Shown here: positions 2,624 to 45,177 of the stretch, piece by piece
How positions within the stretch are numbered: position 1 is the stretch's first letter
How the letters are laid out: each line of letters starts with the position of its first letter
NCBI RefSeq assembly: GCF_001518015.1
Contig: NZ_LPUY01000088.1
Coordinates: 1-64,000, forward strand
Reading direction: 5' to 3'
DNA: 64,000 bases
Source of the DNA: Tritonibacter horizontis
GTDB taxonomy: Bacteria; Pseudomonadota; Alphaproteobacteria; Rhodobacterales; Rhodobacteraceae
Notes under the pieces: generated by a model
What the model was told of the DNA's origin: nothing
The model's database searches: none
Seen by the model: the letters and a program-made list of their open reading frames with translations, nothing else
Position numbers and translations under genes: made by a program

Positions 2624-5600
2624 CAGCTCAGAACCCAGCCCGCCACCGGCCCCGGGCCAAAGCGGGCCGAGATCTGCGCCACTTCGACCCGGTCGCCGGC
2701 GCTCACCCCGTCGCTCAGCTGCGCGCCGCTGGCGTAGGTCCAGCCCGGCGTCGTGACCCGCTCCTCGCGCAGCACAGTGGCACCTGACAGCACCTGCACA
2801 CGATACAGCTCGCGCTCCTCGCCCAGCGGCACCTCCTCCAGATCCCAGCTGTCGCCCTCGATCCGGGTGCGGCGGATCCACGACAGGTCCAGATCCGTGC
2901 CCAGATCGCCATCGGCCGTCAGATGCGCCGGCGCGTAGGGCCGCAGCCCGCTGCCGTCAAAACTGGCGGTGACGGCCACATAGGACGGGTCGTCATGGGC
3001 CCGCCGCGCCGGACCAAAGCGATAGTCGCGGGCCACCCGGCGCTGCGACAGCGACAGGTCCAGTTGCTCCAACGCCGCATCGAGCAGCACCACATAGGAG
3101 CCCTCGGGCCAAACCTCGGGCATCAGCCCGTCGCTGCCGAACTGGCCCCGCAGGCGGGTGCGGATCAGATAGCGGTCGGGCGCGATCAGCTCGGCCTCGG
3201 CAAATTGGATCACCTCCCACTGGCCGGGCGTGCCATCGCCAATGGCCAGCCGGTTGGCGCCGTTCAGCACCGCCTGCGGCGCAACACTGTCCAGCACGCC
3301 GCCGATCAGCTCCACCTCCAGCGCCGCGCCAAGATCCCAGCGGCCCAGCGGCCCGGCGGCCAGCGGTGTCCGGGTAATCCCGACCGTGGCGCGGGCCGGC
3401 AGCAGCGCCTCCAGCGCAAATTCACTATCCAGATCAGCCCCATAGAGCGCCACCGCCCCCGGCCAGTCCCGCGCCGCCGCGCAGACATGCGGCGCATGGG
3501 GCACCTCGTCGCCCCGCATCAGCGGCAGATCAAGGAACAGCGGCAGCACCGGCACCGGCGCGGCAAAGGCCTGCGCGCGCGGCAGATCCTCGGGCAGCTC
3601 CAGCGGCTGATAGACCACCGGTTCGATCCGCACCGCCTCCAGGATCTGCGCCTCGGCCTGCTCCACCCGGTCCACCCGGTAGAGCGCGGCCCCCTCGCCG
3701 TCTTGCCCCGGCAGCTGGACCACATCGCCCGCGCCCAGATCCAGGGCGCGCGACGGCGGCAGCGCAAACCGGGCGCTGTCGCGCGAAATCCGCGATTCCG
3801 CCAGCCAGCGCTGCACCACCTGCCGCCCTTCGGCGCGCGTCAGCGTCATCGCCAGTTCGTTCTGGCTGACCGCATGGGTGGCGTCATCGGGCAGCACCGC
3901 CTCTTCGGCGACGGTGTCATGGCCACCGCCCCATTCGACAAACCGCAACCGCACCCGGCCGCTCAGCTCGGCTTCGGGGACGCGGGTCTGTTCCTGATCG
4001 CCGTCCAGTTCGGGCAGCACGGCAAATTCCGCCGCCTCCAGCGCCACCGCGTTTTCACCATCGCGCGGCCGAAACACCAAATGCCCGTCCCGTTCGATCG
4101 CGTCAAAACCGTGACGCAGCATCAAGGGTTGCAGCGCAGCGCGGGCCTCGGTCACGTCATAGATCGCATAGCCCCGCACCAGCCCCCACAGATCGCTCAC
4201 ATCGACCTCTGTCACATCGGCGCGCTGACAGATTTCGCTCACCACCGAGGCCAGGGTCCGCTGCCCGACCCGCCCGTTCAGCCAATGGCCACGGGCATAG
4301 TTGTCGCCATCGCTCCAGACCTCGCCCTGATTGGGAAAGGCGGGAAAGGGGCGCGCGTCCCAGGCCCAGACATAGGCATGGCGCATGTCGATCATCTGCC
4401 CGTCATATTCCACCGAAACCGGGTTGTTTGCGGGATCGGACCAATAGCCGATCTGGGCCCGCAGGTATTGTTGTTGAATCAGATCATCACGCATCCCATT
4501 GGAATACTTCGGCAAATGAGATTCCGAACTTTTCGGGTCGAGGAATTTATTGGGCTGGTTGGTGCCCTTGTCGATGGCGGCACAGCCCAGTTCGGTGAAC
4601 CAGATCGGCTTTGACTGCGGCACCCAAGCGGTGGGGCTGGACGCCCGCACGCCGCCGATGCGGTCATAGTGGTCCTGCTGCCACCAGTTGCGAATGTCCT
4701 TCACCCGGTAAATCCAGGGCTCCTGATAGGCGCCATCGGTGATCTCGGTGCGGATCTGCGCGTCGGCGGCCTCGGGCGAGTGGTAATACCAGTCATAGCC
4801 CTCGCCGCCCTCGATATTGGCGCGCAGATACCCCAGATCATAGATCGATCCCCAGTCCTGCGCATCCCGGTGCGCCCGGCCCGCCCGCCAATCCGACAGC
4901 GGCATGTAATTGTCGATGCCGATGAAATCCAGCTCCGGTTCCGACCAGAGCGGATCAAGGTGGAACAGATGGTCGCCCTCCGGCGTCTGGTAGCCGAAAT
5001 ATTCCGACCAATCCGCCGCATAGCCCAGTTTCACCTCTGGCCCCAACAGGCTGCGCACTTCGGCCAGCAGGTCCTGCAATGCCGCCACAAAGGGAAACCC
5101 GGCGGCGCCCCGGATCTGGGTCAGCCCGCGCAGCTCGGAGCCGATGCAAAAGGCCTCCACCCCGCCGGCCGCCGCACAGAGCGCCGCGTAATGCAGGATG
5201 AACCGGCGAAAGCCCCACTCCGGCGGGCCGCTATAGACCACCGTGCCGGCGCTGACGGTGAAATCACTGGCGCTGGCCGTACCGAGAAAGGCGGCCACCT
5301 CGGTGTCGGCCAGCGCGGTGCCATCCGGGCTGCCGGGCTGGCCCGGCGCCTGCGACAGGGTGATCCGCCCCCGCCAGGGCAGCACCGGCTGGCCCGGCGC
5401 GCCGGTATAGGGATCGACCAGGTCGTTGCCGGCCTGCTGTTCCATCAGGATAAAGGGGTAGAACATCACCCGTTTGCCCTGATCGGTCAGGTGGCGGATG
5501 CCCTCGATCACCGCCGCATCGGCCGGCGTGCCGCCATAAACCGGCGCGCCCCCGGTCTGGATCACCTCGGCGGCATGGGCCCGCGACAGGCCGCTGACCT

Positions 5601-40468: not shown

Positions 40469-40553
40469 TGGTGCGGGTGGAGGGACTTGAACCCCCACGC
40501 CTTGCGGCGCCAGAACCTAAATCTGGTGCGTCTACCAATTTCGCCACACCCGC
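40469..40553 (-). tRNA. tRNA-Leu (anticodon UAG)
   Basis: 85 nt including an encoded CCA (40469-40471). The acceptor stem GCGGGTG pairs with CACCCGC, the D-arm contains AATTGGTAGACGC, the anticodon loop is TTTAGGT in a CCAGA/TCTGG stem (anticodon TAG), a long class II variable arm follows, and the T-loop is GGTTCAAGTCC. It lies alone between the hybrid kinase and the Hint-domain gene. Confidence 0.97.
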
Positions 40554-42127: not shown

Positions 42128-43534
42128 ATGAGCAAGGACGCAGTTCTTAAGCTGATCAAGGATGAAGAGGCGGAATACGTCGACATCCGCTTCACCGACC
42201 CACGTGGCAAACTGCAGCACGTGACCCTGATGTCCGATCAAGTCGACGAAGACTTCCTCGACGAAGGCTTCATGTTCGACGGGTCCTCGATCGCCGGCTG
42301 GAAATCCATCGAAGCCTCCGACATGAAACTGATCCCCGATACCAATTCGGCCTATGTGGATCCTTTCTACGCGGAAAAAACTGTCTGCATTCATTGCTCT
42401 GTTGTCGAACCCGACACCGGTGAAGCCTATGACCGCGACCCGCGCGGCACCGCCGAAAAAGCCGAAGCCTACCTCAAGGCGACCGGGATCGGCGATGTGG
42501 CCTACATGGGCCCCGAAGCGGAATTCTTCCTCTTTGACGATGTGCGTTTCTCCAACTCCATCAACAAAGTGTCCTATGAGGTCGATGCAACCGACGCCTC
42601 CTGGAACACCGATGCGGAATTCGAAACCGGCAACATGGGCCACCGTCCCGGCGTCAAGGGCGGCTACTTCCCGGTCAACCCCGTCGACGAAGCCCAGGAC
42701 CTGCGCTCCGAGATGCTCTCCACCATGAAGCGTCTGGGCATGAAGGTCGACAAGCACCACCACGAGGTGGCGTCCTGTCAGCACGAACTGGGCCTGATCT
42801 TTGACAGCCTGACCAAACAGGCCGACGAGCTGCAGAAATACAAATACGTGATCCACAACGTGGCCCACGCTTACGGCAAATCCGCCACCTTCATGCCCAA
42901 GCCGATTGCCGGCGACAACGGTACCGGCATGCATGTGAACATGTCGATCTGGAAAGACGGCAAGCCGCTGTTTGCAGGCGACAAATACGCGGATCTGAGC
43001 CAGGAAGCGCTGTATTTCATCGGCGGCATCCTGAAGCATGCCAAGACGCTGAACGCCTTCACCAACCCGGCCACCAACTCCTACAAGCGTCTGATCCCGG
43101 GCTTCGAAGCCCCCGTTCTGCGCGCGTATTCCGCCCGCAACCGTTCTGGCTGCGTGCGTATTCCATGGACCGAATCCCCGAAGGCAAAACGCGTCGAAGC
43201 GCGCTTCCCCGATCCGGCGGCAAACCCCTATCTGGCGTTCGCAGCCCTGCTGATGGCCGGCCTTGACGGCATCAAGAACAAGATCGATCCGGGCGAAGCC
43301 ATGGACAAGAACCTCTATGACCTGCCCGCAGAAGAGCTGGCCGGCATCCCCACAGTCTGTGGCTCGCTGCGCGAAGCTCTGGAATGCCTGGCGGCAGACC
43401 ACGACTTCCTGCTGCAGGGCGACGTGTTCACCAAAGGCCAGATCGAGGGCTATATCGAGCTCAAGATGGAAGAGGTCGAAACCTACGAGCACACGCCTCA
43501 CCCGGTTGAATACGGCATGTACTACAGCTGCTAA
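42128..43534 (+). CDS. glnA: Glutamine synthetase, type I
   Basis: 468 residues, dodecameric GSI-beta type that makes glutamine from glutamate and ammonium. [10 protein letters not shown], the [13 protein letters not shown]-binding region and NRSGCVRIP are conserved, and Tyr397 (NLYDLP) is the adenylylation site, so GlnE control is expected. GGAGG lies about 10 nt before the ATG. Second gene of glnBA; a strong terminator follows. Confidence 0.98.
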
Positions 43535-43556: not shown

Positions 43557-43586
43557 AAAGAGCGCCCCAATCGGGCGCTCTTTTTT
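43557..43586 (+). terminator. Terminator of glnBA
   Basis: 11-bp stem (43557-43567 with 43573-43583) followed by T6. Confidence 0.92.
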
Positions 43587-43690
43587 CGTTCGGCATCTCT
43601 GGTCGTCTCAAGGGGCCTGGCCGCGCGCCCCTCGTTGCCGTGGTGCATCGCTTGTCCGCTCTCGCGTGCCCAACGTGCCGTTCAATTTTA

Positions 43691-43719
43691 TTGACTGTTC
43701 AGTCAACTACCTCTATCCT
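43691..43719 (+). promoter_or_regulatory. Promoter with embedded palindromic operator
   Basis: TTGACT (43691-43696), a 17-bp spacer and TATCCT (43714-43719) form a good sigma70 promoter. The -35 box is the left arm of a perfect palindrome, TTGACTG-TT-CAGTCAA (43691-43706), of the kind bound by TetR-type repressors. Confidence 0.6.
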
Positions 43720-43726
43720 CTTTTTG

Positions 43727-43839
43727 TCCGGGGGCCGCGCTTGCCCCCACCAGGATCAACACCTTCTCCGCATTTGGTTGTCTGCGTGATGACCACGCTG
43801 CGGCAGGGCGTCTCGCCTCCCAGTGGGCGCCCTTTTTTT
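43727..43839 (+). ncRNA. Candidate small RNA between glnA and the Hsp70-like gene
   Basis: From the predicted start near 43727, the transcript would contain a hairpin with GGGGGC/GCCCCC arms (43730-43735, 43743-43748), a second with GCGTG/CACGC (43784-43788, 43794-43798), and a final one with AGGGCG/CGCCCT (43805-43810, 43828-43833) followed by T7. This gives about 112 nt with its own promoter and terminator. A C/U-rich loop (CGCCTCCC) could pair with ribosome-binding sites. A short frame from the ATG at 43789 lacks a ribosome-binding site. Inferred from sequence only. Confidence 0.45.
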
Positions 43840-43920
43840 CCCCACAGGTCAGATCCCGGTTGAGCGGTTTTCGCGCATGTTGTAGGGCTGCCAGCCTTGT
43901 AAAGCGCGAGAGATGGCCCA

Positions 43921-45177
43921 ATGCCCCGACCCCAGACCCTTGGCATCGATTTTGGAACTTCGAACTCTGCCGCCGGGGTGACCGTGGCCGACCGACCTTG
44001 GCTTGTCGAACTGGAGCCGGGCGAAACCACGCTGCCAACAGCAATCTTTTTCGACAGTGACACCAAACAGATGCGGATTGGCCGCAGCGCGACGCGCGCC
44101 CTGGTCGAAGGGGACGAGGGCCGTTTCATGCGCGCCCTCAAAAGCCTGCTCGGAACACCGCTGCTGTATGAGAAACGCCGACTGGGCGGCGTGATGATGG
44201 ATTTCACCGATGTGATCGCGCATTTCCTGCGCGAGGTGAAAACACGGGCCGAAACGGCAACCCGGCTGGAATTCAGCCACGCGCTGTCAGGGCGCCCGGT
44301 CAAGTTTCACTCCAAGGATGAGGCCCGCAACGCCCGCGCCGAAGAGGATCTGCGGGCCTGCTATCTCAAGGCGGGGTTCGCGGATGTGCGATTTCTCAAC
44401 GAACCCGAAGCGGCACTGCGCGCGGCCCGGCCACATCCCGGCATAGGTCTTGTGGTGGACATCGGCGGCGGGACCTCGGATTTCACCTGTTTTGAACAGA
44501 CCGCAACCGGCGGCAGCACGATCCTGGCCAGCCACGGCCTGCGTCTGGGGGGCACCGATTTCGACCGCCAGATCAGCATCGACCATGTGATGCCGCACTT
44601 GGGCCGTGGGGCGATGATCCGCAACAGCTTTGGCAGTGGCACCCTGCCCGCCCCCAGTCGGATGTTCAACGATCTGGCGACCTGGGCGATGATCCCGTTT
44701 CTTTATAGCGCCGACAGCCGTCGCGCGGCCCAAGACCTGGCGCGCAACGCCGAAGATCCGACGCAATTGACCCGTTTGGTGCGGGTGCTGGACGAGGAAC
44801 TGGGCCATGATCTCGCCTTTGCCACCGAGGCGGGCAAGATCCGGGCGAATTCCAATGGCCCGCACGGCGAAGCTGCAATGATTGACCTCCGGCTGATCGA
44901 CCCTGGACTGGCGGCCCCCCTGACCGGCACCGCGCTGAACCAGACCCTGGCCGCCATGGTCGACGACATCCGCGCCGAAGCGGCAGAGACCCTGCGGCTG
45001 GCAAATATTGCCCCTGATGCCGTGGACCGGTGCGTCATGGTCGGTGGCTCCGCGCTGTTGTCGGCCGTCAGGGACGCAATGCAGACCCTTTGCCCGAATG
45101 CAGAGATAGAGACCGAGCGCGCGATGACGGCCGTTGCCGACGGGCTTGCCCTTGCGGCACAGGATGCGGTGTTCTGA
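43921..45177 (+). CDS. Hsp70-like ATPase, YegD type
   Basis: 418 residues. It has the actin/Hsp70 nucleotide-binding fold: phosphate-1 motif LGIDFGTSNS, phosphate-2 VVDIGGGTSDF, and adenosine motif VGGSALLSAV, but no substrate-binding domain or lid, like E. coli YegD (~450 residues). Probably a cytosolic chaperone-related ATPase of unknown client. The ribosome-binding site is weak. Its promoter region adjoins the candidate small RNA. Confidence 0.88.
   Translation: MPRPQTLGIDFGTSNSAAGVTVADRPWLVELEPGETTLPTAIFFDSDTKQMRIGRSATRALVEGDEGRFMRALKSLLGTPLLYEKRRLGGVMMDFTDVIAHFLREVKTRAETATRLEFSHALSGRPVKFHSKDEARNARAEEDLRACYLKAGFADVRFLNEPEAALRAARPHPGIGLVVDIGGGTSDFTCFEQTATGGSTILASHGLRLGGTDFDRQISIDHVMPHLGRGAMIRNSFGSGTLPAPSRMFNDLATWAMIPFLYSADSRRAAQDLARNAEDPTQLTRLVRVLDEELGHDLAFATEAGKIRANSNGPHGEAAMIDLRLIDPGLAAPLTGTALNQTLAAMVDDIRAEAAETLRLANIAPDAVDRCVMVGGSALLSAVRDAMQTLCPNAEIETERAMTAVADGLALAAQDAVF

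Follow-up and report, generated by a model that had tools for sequence, protein, structure and literature searches.

The stretch of DNA considered here (the 'window'; 64,000 nt of Tritonibacter horizontis) contains, in the interval between glnA, encoding a type I glutamine synthetase, and a gene for an Hsp70-like protein (43557-43920), a compact element made up of a promoter, an operator-like dyad and three predicted hairpins, the last of which forms an intrinsic terminator (Table 1). The glnA gene is closed by a terminator of its own, and the Hsp70-like gene, which lies outside the element, is preceded by a conserved block that is present also in relatives without the element. A promoter scan recovered the promoter that a first-pass annotation of the window had described, with its -35 hexamer sitting in one arm of the dyad; the same TTGACT and 17-bp spacing can likewise be read in the homologous elements of two other species (G001 and G005). 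The 'perfect 16-bp palindrome' of that annotation turned out to be a 7 + 2 + 7 arrangement, TTGACTG-TT-CAGTCAA, in which the central TT is not self-complementary and TTGACT forms the left arm, such that the operator overlaps the -35.

Table 1. The element, its predicted parts and its neighbours, by position in the window
Feature	Position	Strand	Basis
glnA, type I glutamine synthetase; upstream neighbour	42128-43534	+	TIGR00653, 651.8 bits
glnA terminator: hairpin 43557-43583 plus T-run, between glnA and the element	43557-43590	+	Terminator scan, sequence
BetI box TTATTGACTGTTCAGTCAACTA; core dyad TTGACTG-TT-CAGTCAA, 43691-43706	43688-43709	.	Generalised-box scan; boxes before betI1, betC and betB
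Promoter: -35 TTGACT (43691-43696), 17 bp, -10 TATCCT (43714-43719)	43691-43719	+	Promoter scan
Candidate sRNA, about 112 nt	43726-43839	+	Start placed near 43726-43727 from the position of the -10; homologous elements at L009:796-950 and L064:2107-2266 (minus)
Predicted hairpin 1, not clearly conserved	43726-43756	+	MFE fold
Predicted hairpin 2, not clearly conserved	43768-43803	+	MFE fold
Terminator hairpin (43805-43833) plus T-run; stem kept in three species	43805-43839	+	Terminator scan, fold, alignment
TCGCCTCCCAGTG, 13 contiguous pairs (one G-U) with the BCCT-like transporter leader	43813-43825	+	
Conserved core CCTCCCAG, 8/8 in three species	43816-43823	+	Alignment
Conserved block ahead of the Hsp70-like gene, which it probably serves as promoter	about 43857-43899	+	Relatives with and without the element
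Hsp70-like gene; downstream neighbour, outside the element	43921-45177	+	Pfam HSP70, 57.4 bits

Taken alone, neither the dyad nor the promoter is beyond chance. Seven dyads of the 7-N2-7 type occur in the window against an expected 4 to 6, the 4 kb scanned gave one promoter-like match against a shuffle mean of 1.1, and a search of the T. horizontis genome with the 16-base core, allowing up to 2 mismatches, revealed no enrichment (8 sites, against 19 for the reversed control). What raises the element above chance is its conservation in two more species, together with the identity of its operator as a BetI box, of which this genome holds two sites only.

The minimum free energy fold of 43726-43839 comprises three hairpins (-48.6 kcal/mol, z -2.17), with 6 of 200 shuffled sequences folding as well; this fold and the terminator scan bear out the three hairpins, the last with a T-run, that had been noticed before. 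The earlier view that no protein is convincingly encoded also holds, in that the open reading frames of the three homologous elements have no start codon and frame in common. No Rfam family matches the element at its gathering score (the sole such match in the window is a tRNA gene at 40472-40553 on the minus strand), and at a lax threshold the best score over the element is 13.9 bits, for Atu_C4, whose gathering score is 80; STnc and MicX matches at the same lax threshold were set aside, being weak and lying mostly over the glnA terminator. With its own promoter, an intrinsic terminator and no conserved reading frame, the element has the features of a trans-acting sRNA as far as these can be judged from sequence, and we regard an sRNA gene at this place as very probable.

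The Hsp70-like gene is present in 17 of the 18 genomes of the genus (a contig search for relatives of its protein returned four loci), and in eight of them the end of glnA lies no more than 600 nt upstream (G000, G001, G004, G005, G006, G010, G011 and G016). The element occupies this interval in three of those eight genomes, and thus in three of the 18: T. horizontis itself, G001 (L009:796-950) and G005 (L064:2107-2266, minus strand). A covariance model built from the three elements and run against 195 relatives, the 18 of the genus included, found full-length matches in these three only (131-158 bits), with at most 25.1 bits elsewhere among the matches listed; absence carries little weight for G015, which is 67% complete, and for G004, which is fragmented. 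The 14 lower matches that we read by eye contained no homologue, and were gene terminators apart from a BetI box (L112) and a CCUCCUCCUCCC RNA (L120). The latter (G027:C1:975862-975901 with the 170 bases before it) is in itself RNA-like, with four hairpins and loops CCTCCTCCTCCC, resembling the CcsR/CCUCCUCCC anti-Shine-Dalgarno RNAs. A similarity search of the element against 61 relatives gave matches in five genomes, which beyond T. horizontis were short pieces only, one pointing to G005 and a second to the box at betC in G011; a plasmid collection searched with 43660-43920 yielded no match, and the pattern box-N92-122-CTCCCAG, sought in a sample of 394 family genomes that did not include G001 or G005, occurred in the T. 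horizontis genome only. In the glnA/Hsp70-like interval of G011, positions L021:1315-1359 match the end of the model (12.8 bits, E 0.019) and may be the remnant of a decayed element.

Within the three-species alignment, conservation is concentrated at the two ends: 15 of 18 columns are identical in the operator, 23 of 29 in the terminator and 8 of 8 in the loop core CCUCCCAG, as against 18 of 76 in the body, a figure slightly above that of shuffled sequences (mean 11.6; one in 60 as high). The first-pass annotation had looked to covariation for support of the stems, and with three sequences to compare this was forthcoming for the terminator, where all 11 pairs are kept in every sequence; the two upstream hairpins fared less well, since of their 15 pairs eight are disrupted in one or more sequences and six are doubly changed. 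The three bearers do not form a clade in a phylogeny of the Hsp70-like protein (16 rows, G004 and G015 being left out), and G016, the sister of G005 (99/97 support), is without the element; one gain followed by several losses is the simplest reading of this history.

Scanning for further copies of the operator proved decisive, as it identified the box of the choline repressor BetI. When 198 family genomes were searched with a strict pattern, WTTGACTGNNCAGTCAAW, 15 sites came to light at 14 places (reversed control, 7), and at seven of these places (L065, L068, L070, L071, L073, L074 and L077) the box lies directly upstream of a betI1 orthologue, at one (L075) upstream of betB and at one (L072) near a betC-like gene (48% identity); the other five have no bet gene, and one of them (L067, in G025) adjoins a different TetR gene. 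Of the seven box-adjoining regulators, the five that were scanned match TIGR03384 (198-218 bits) and NF001978, the regulator at L077 falling just below the TIGR03384 cut-off of 201.3. A generalised box, TTATTGAYTGNNNRRTYAATAA with up to 2 mismatches, has two sites in the 4.86-Mb T. horizontis genome, one at the betC promoter and the other at the sRNA promoter, against none for the reversed pattern, which matched once over all 18 genomes of the genus. Seven genus genomes carry such a box upstream of betC (T. horizontis, G001, G005, G007, G009, G011 and G016), and that of G011 agrees with the sRNA box at 20 of 22 positions, the 16-bp core being identical; the betC leaders of six box-bearing genomes, inspected by eye, showed no sRNA-like body.

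The sRNA promoter has the ATTGA...TCAAT dyad of the BetI type, and its right half-site, CAGTCAA, is that of the betC and betI1 boxes. All three sRNA boxes and all seven betC boxes of the genus are of the N8 form, a spacing that we take the E. coli bet operator to share, although the sRNA boxes of G001 and G005 end in TTAA and not TCAA. The assignment of the operator as a BetI box is therefore well supported by the sequence comparisons, and the small RNA under a TetR-type operator that had been proposed for this locus gains both support and a name for its putative TetR protein; if the sRNA is transcribed, it is highly probable that BetI is its regulator.

Similar dyads turned up at other genes. 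A BetI-like box, TTATTGGCTG..ATCAATAA, lies just upstream of a gene for a TauE/SafE-type exporter at L258 (G001:C66:161344) and L263 (G005:C11:309356), the G001 copy scoring 168 bits against Pfam TauE; as BetC frees sulfate from choline-O-sulfate, one could imagine the BetI regulon having a sulfur-export branch. The dyad TTGACTGTTTGGTCAA at L252 (G010:C26:3562) and L262 (G011:C86:8274, ...GGTAAA), which we call RutR-like on the basis of what we take to be the RutR consensus, precedes a gene for a PreA-like dihydropyrimidine dehydrogenase (286.9 bits with the PreA model, below its cut-off of 335). A further box-like dyad, TTATTGACGGCCCACTCAATAA, and its counterpart in G009 precede the gene of a small protein (MSESWKPTDYPS...) at L260 (G016:C45:426677) and L261 (G009:C3:3177679).

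All three bearers of the element have a gene for BetI1 (in T. horizontis at G000:C95:443-1018), and with the T. horizontis protein as query an orthologue was found at E 1e-45 or better in 21 of 61 relatives. Outside the clade of T. horizontis (taken as G000, G001, G005, G007, G009, G011 and G016), all 14 betI1 orthologues have a BetI-type dyad upstream, 12 of them TTGA-N8-TCAA, 13 TTGA-N4-TCAA and 11 both, nested, which suggests that both forms go with BetI1. Within the clade, no box is found within 250 nt upstream of betI1 in any of the seven genomes, so that the regulator gene has a different arrangement there; this, along with the question of spacing, lowers our overall confidence slightly. 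The gene orders themselves differ: in the T. horizontis assembly, betI1 (L059:443-1018, minus strand) sits close to the end of a contig, behind a gene for an ABC transporter, with betC on another contig, and in G001 (L269) box, betC and betI1 follow one another on the same strand, a sign that rearrangement of the bet cluster has taken place within this genus.

Much of what can be expected of such a box comes from Ruegeria pomeroyi DSS-3, for which BetI1 is described as protecting 29 bp that include the -35 of betI1C and as responding to choline, with betB as a further target (PMC12442346). The BetI1 palindrome is printed there as ATTGACG*CGTCAAT, an N4 form with its half-sites 4 bp closer, and BetI2 is described as controlling the betI2-betTA divergon through other boxes that share AAACTTGAAC (PMC12442346). 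The same source portrays choline and choline-O-sulfate as found everywhere in the environment, and as compounds from which bacteria, roseobacters with two BetIs among them, draw carbon, nitrogen and osmolytes (PMC12442346). In the T. horizontis genome a second BetI (on C66) faces a transporter gene, and the region between the two contains AAACTTGAAT, an arrangement that fits this picture of BetI2.

That transporter is our candidate target. The gene (L058:1687-2892, minus strand) encodes 402 amino acids, has betI2 opposite it (3090-3677, plus strand) and is followed by betB. The protein scores below the cut-off against Pfam BCCT (E 0.0053), and the PDB contains no relative of it at an E-value of 1 or below; of its 11 tblastn matches, six are annotated as BCCT family transporters and are plasmid-borne, and it is 61.8-63.1% identical to proteins on large replicons of Pseudoalteromonas. 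From these matches, and from its place between betI2 and betB, we provisionally take it to be a short, divergent BCCT-like protein of the BetT type.

The loop core CCUCCCAG was picked for its conservation, before any targets were examined, and proved complementary to this transporter's ribosome-binding site. Sites of the form CTGGGAGG-N3-9-ATG number 21 in T. horizontis, 27 in G001 and 22 in G005 (reversed control 1, 1 and 0); when the frame behind the ATG was translated for all 70, many proved to be only short frames, and the one gene common to all three lists is the transporter that faces betI2 (91-97% identity among the three). In T. horizontis, UCGCCUCCCAGUG can pair with CACUGGGAGGUGA over 13 contiguous base pairs, one of them G-U, at -29.1 kcal/mol, a value equalled by 2 of 7526 pieces of the window and by none of 96 ORF leaders. 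In G001 and G005 the pairing covers 8 bp and is unexceptional, being equalled by 368 and 647 of the 7526 pieces and by 4 and 9 of the 96 leaders, where the T. horizontis window serves as background for all three genomes. The predicted folds leave CUCCCA unpaired in the T. horizontis RNA and mainly CCC in the other two, and the transporter Shine-Dalgarno sequence falls within a small predicted hairpin, TTCAC-TGGGAG-GTGAA, such that a loop-loop pairing would be possible. Of the 17 BetI loci that we read (that of G006 being a betI1 locus), 7 have CTGGGAGG at the transporter, four of the seven in genomes without the RNA (G004, G007, G009 and G016), and G010 and G011 have CTGGGAGT. The evidence for this target, all of it from sequence, is thus strong in T. 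horizontis only, and we propose the transporter as the main target of the RNA tentatively, at somewhat less than even odds.

Synthesising these observations, we suggest, with a probability of roughly 0.65, that the element encodes a BetI1-repressed, choline-induced sRNA which probably damps uptake by pairing with the transporter leader. On this model we infer that, when choline is absent, a BetI1-type BetI would bind the box that contains the -35 and hold the promoter shut, and that choline, whether imported or freed from choline-O-sulfate by BetC, would relieve this repression, giving rise to an RNA of about 112 nt that ends at the intrinsic terminator. The terminator loop CCUCCCAG might then pair with the Shine-Dalgarno sequence of the BCCT-like transporter mRNA and reduce its translation; the mRNAs lowered would be that of the choline transporter, or those of other transporters with GGGAGG leaders. 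Such a circuit would be an incoherent feed-forward loop, in which choline switches on the uptake gene by way of BetI2 and simultaneously damps it by way of BetI1 and the RNA. We speak here of 'relief of repression' and not of 'release', as the E. coli BetI-DNA complex is reportedly stimulated by choline (so the title of a paper has it), and release by choline is uncertain. A more elaborate and rather doubtful version would have the RNA join both BetI branches as a riboregulator, docking loop to loop at the Shine-Dalgarno hairpin and imposing a pulse or a ceiling on choline import.

A BetI-controlled sRNA might instead act, much as AbcR or GcvB do, chiefly on other mRNAs with GGGAGG leaders, such as those for TRAP and ABC substrate-binding proteins, with the transporter match being incidental. 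Several CTGGGAGG-leader genes found in a single genome do resemble solute transporters by eye, the ribosome-binding site of the transporter is identical in four genomes that have no RNA, and the pairing in G001 and G005 is weak; but none of these other genes is common to the three genomes, and the sole common one belongs to the choline cluster, which leaves this alternative well short of even odds. Should the RNA have no targets at all, the locus would be an idle or decaying unit of promoter and terminator under BetI repression, or its box a mere BetI decoy, for which the hardly conserved body and the patchy occurrence (three of the eight genomes where glnA is followed by the Hsp70-like gene, with a sister species lacking the element) could be adduced. 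We consider this improbable, because the loop core CCUCCCAG, although dispensable for termination, is identical in 3 of 3 sequences despite the drift of the body, and both ends of the element have been kept in three separate lineages.

Two other readings would take the element out of choline metabolism altogether. Its operator could belong to a different TetR-family protein, for example RutR with its link to pyrimidines, so that the RNA answers another signal: TTGACTGTTTGGTCAA and TTGACTGTTTGGTAAA, 2-3 changes away, precede the PreA-like gene in G010 and G011, and the strict box of L067 in G025 stands beside a TetR gene that has no BetI match. Set against this are the CAGTCAA half-site of the betC and betI1 boxes, the identical 16-bp core at betC of G011 and the presence of BetI1 in all three bearers, and we judge such a regulator very unlikely. 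As for a product of the glnA 3'-UTR, comparable to GlnZ, or a leader of the Hsp70-like mRNA, either of which would imply nitrogen or stress control, position is all that speaks for them. The first-pass annotation had suggested links of both kinds; the one to nitrogen control falters on the terminator that glnA has to itself (43557-43583) and on an operator that points to choline metabolism, and the one to the Hsp70-like gene on the conserved block by which that gene is preceded even where the element is absent, in addition to which the element has its own promoter and ends in a terminator before the Hsp70-like gene. This pair of readings seems to us very improbable, and a BetI1-repressed, choline-induced sRNA remains the preferred account.

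If this account is true, then, as far as the literature searched shows, the sRNA would be the first described under BetI: searches for choline or BetI/BetT together with sRNAs returned no BetI-controlled sRNA among the matches listed, and no paper was found that combines an sRNA with TetR-family repression. The study of sRNAs in R. pomeroyi reports 99 putative sRNAs and includes a glutamine synthetase family protein in its 'Functional roles' table, its main text making no mention of glnA, choline, BetI or Hsp70 (PMC4809877). Choline sensing in these bacteria would gain an RNA branch beside its protein targets, and the proposal could be tested directly, as it names both a repressor and a candidate target and predicts a pairing of 13 bp.

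The proposed logic has precedents in SgrS, GcvB and RyhB, sRNAs that stand under a metabolite-sensing regulator and act on genes of the same metabolism; here the sensor would be BetI, of the TetR family, and the signal choline, and no sequence relation is claimed. GlnZ, the sRNA of the glnA 3'-UTR in Enterobacteriaceae (PMC9731577), shares with the element its position downstream of glnA, but the latter has its own promoter behind the glnA terminator, and a GlnZ-like origin is unlikely given these separate signals. The 'cuckoo'-type CcsR/CCUCCUCCC RNAs of alphaproteobacteria, as they are described (PMC3927594, PMC10253847), are likewise small RNAs with an anti-Shine-Dalgarno hairpin loop; they carry several CCUCCUCCC loops, whereas the element has a single CCUCCCAG loop, placed in its terminator, is without a ccaF1-like partner and has a promoter of the BetI type in place of an RpoH one, and we did not assign it to that family since its several CCUCCUCCC-loop hairpins are absent here. 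AbcR1 and AbcR2 (PMC5461406) resemble the candidate as alphaproteobacterial sRNAs with transporter mRNAs for targets, which in our case are predicted, and to some degree also in the anti-Shine-Dalgarno loop; they differ in promoter control, and the element matches no Rfam family at its gathering score. In regulation the element resembles the BetI1 regulon of R. pomeroyi DSS-3 (betI1C and betB), in which a TetR-family choline sensor is described as acting at a box over the -35 with the same ATTGA/TCAAT dyad, and relatives of whose betC, betI1 and betB carry the box; the members known from that account are protein genes and its printed spacing is N4, as compared with N8 and a putative RNA gene here (PMC12442346).
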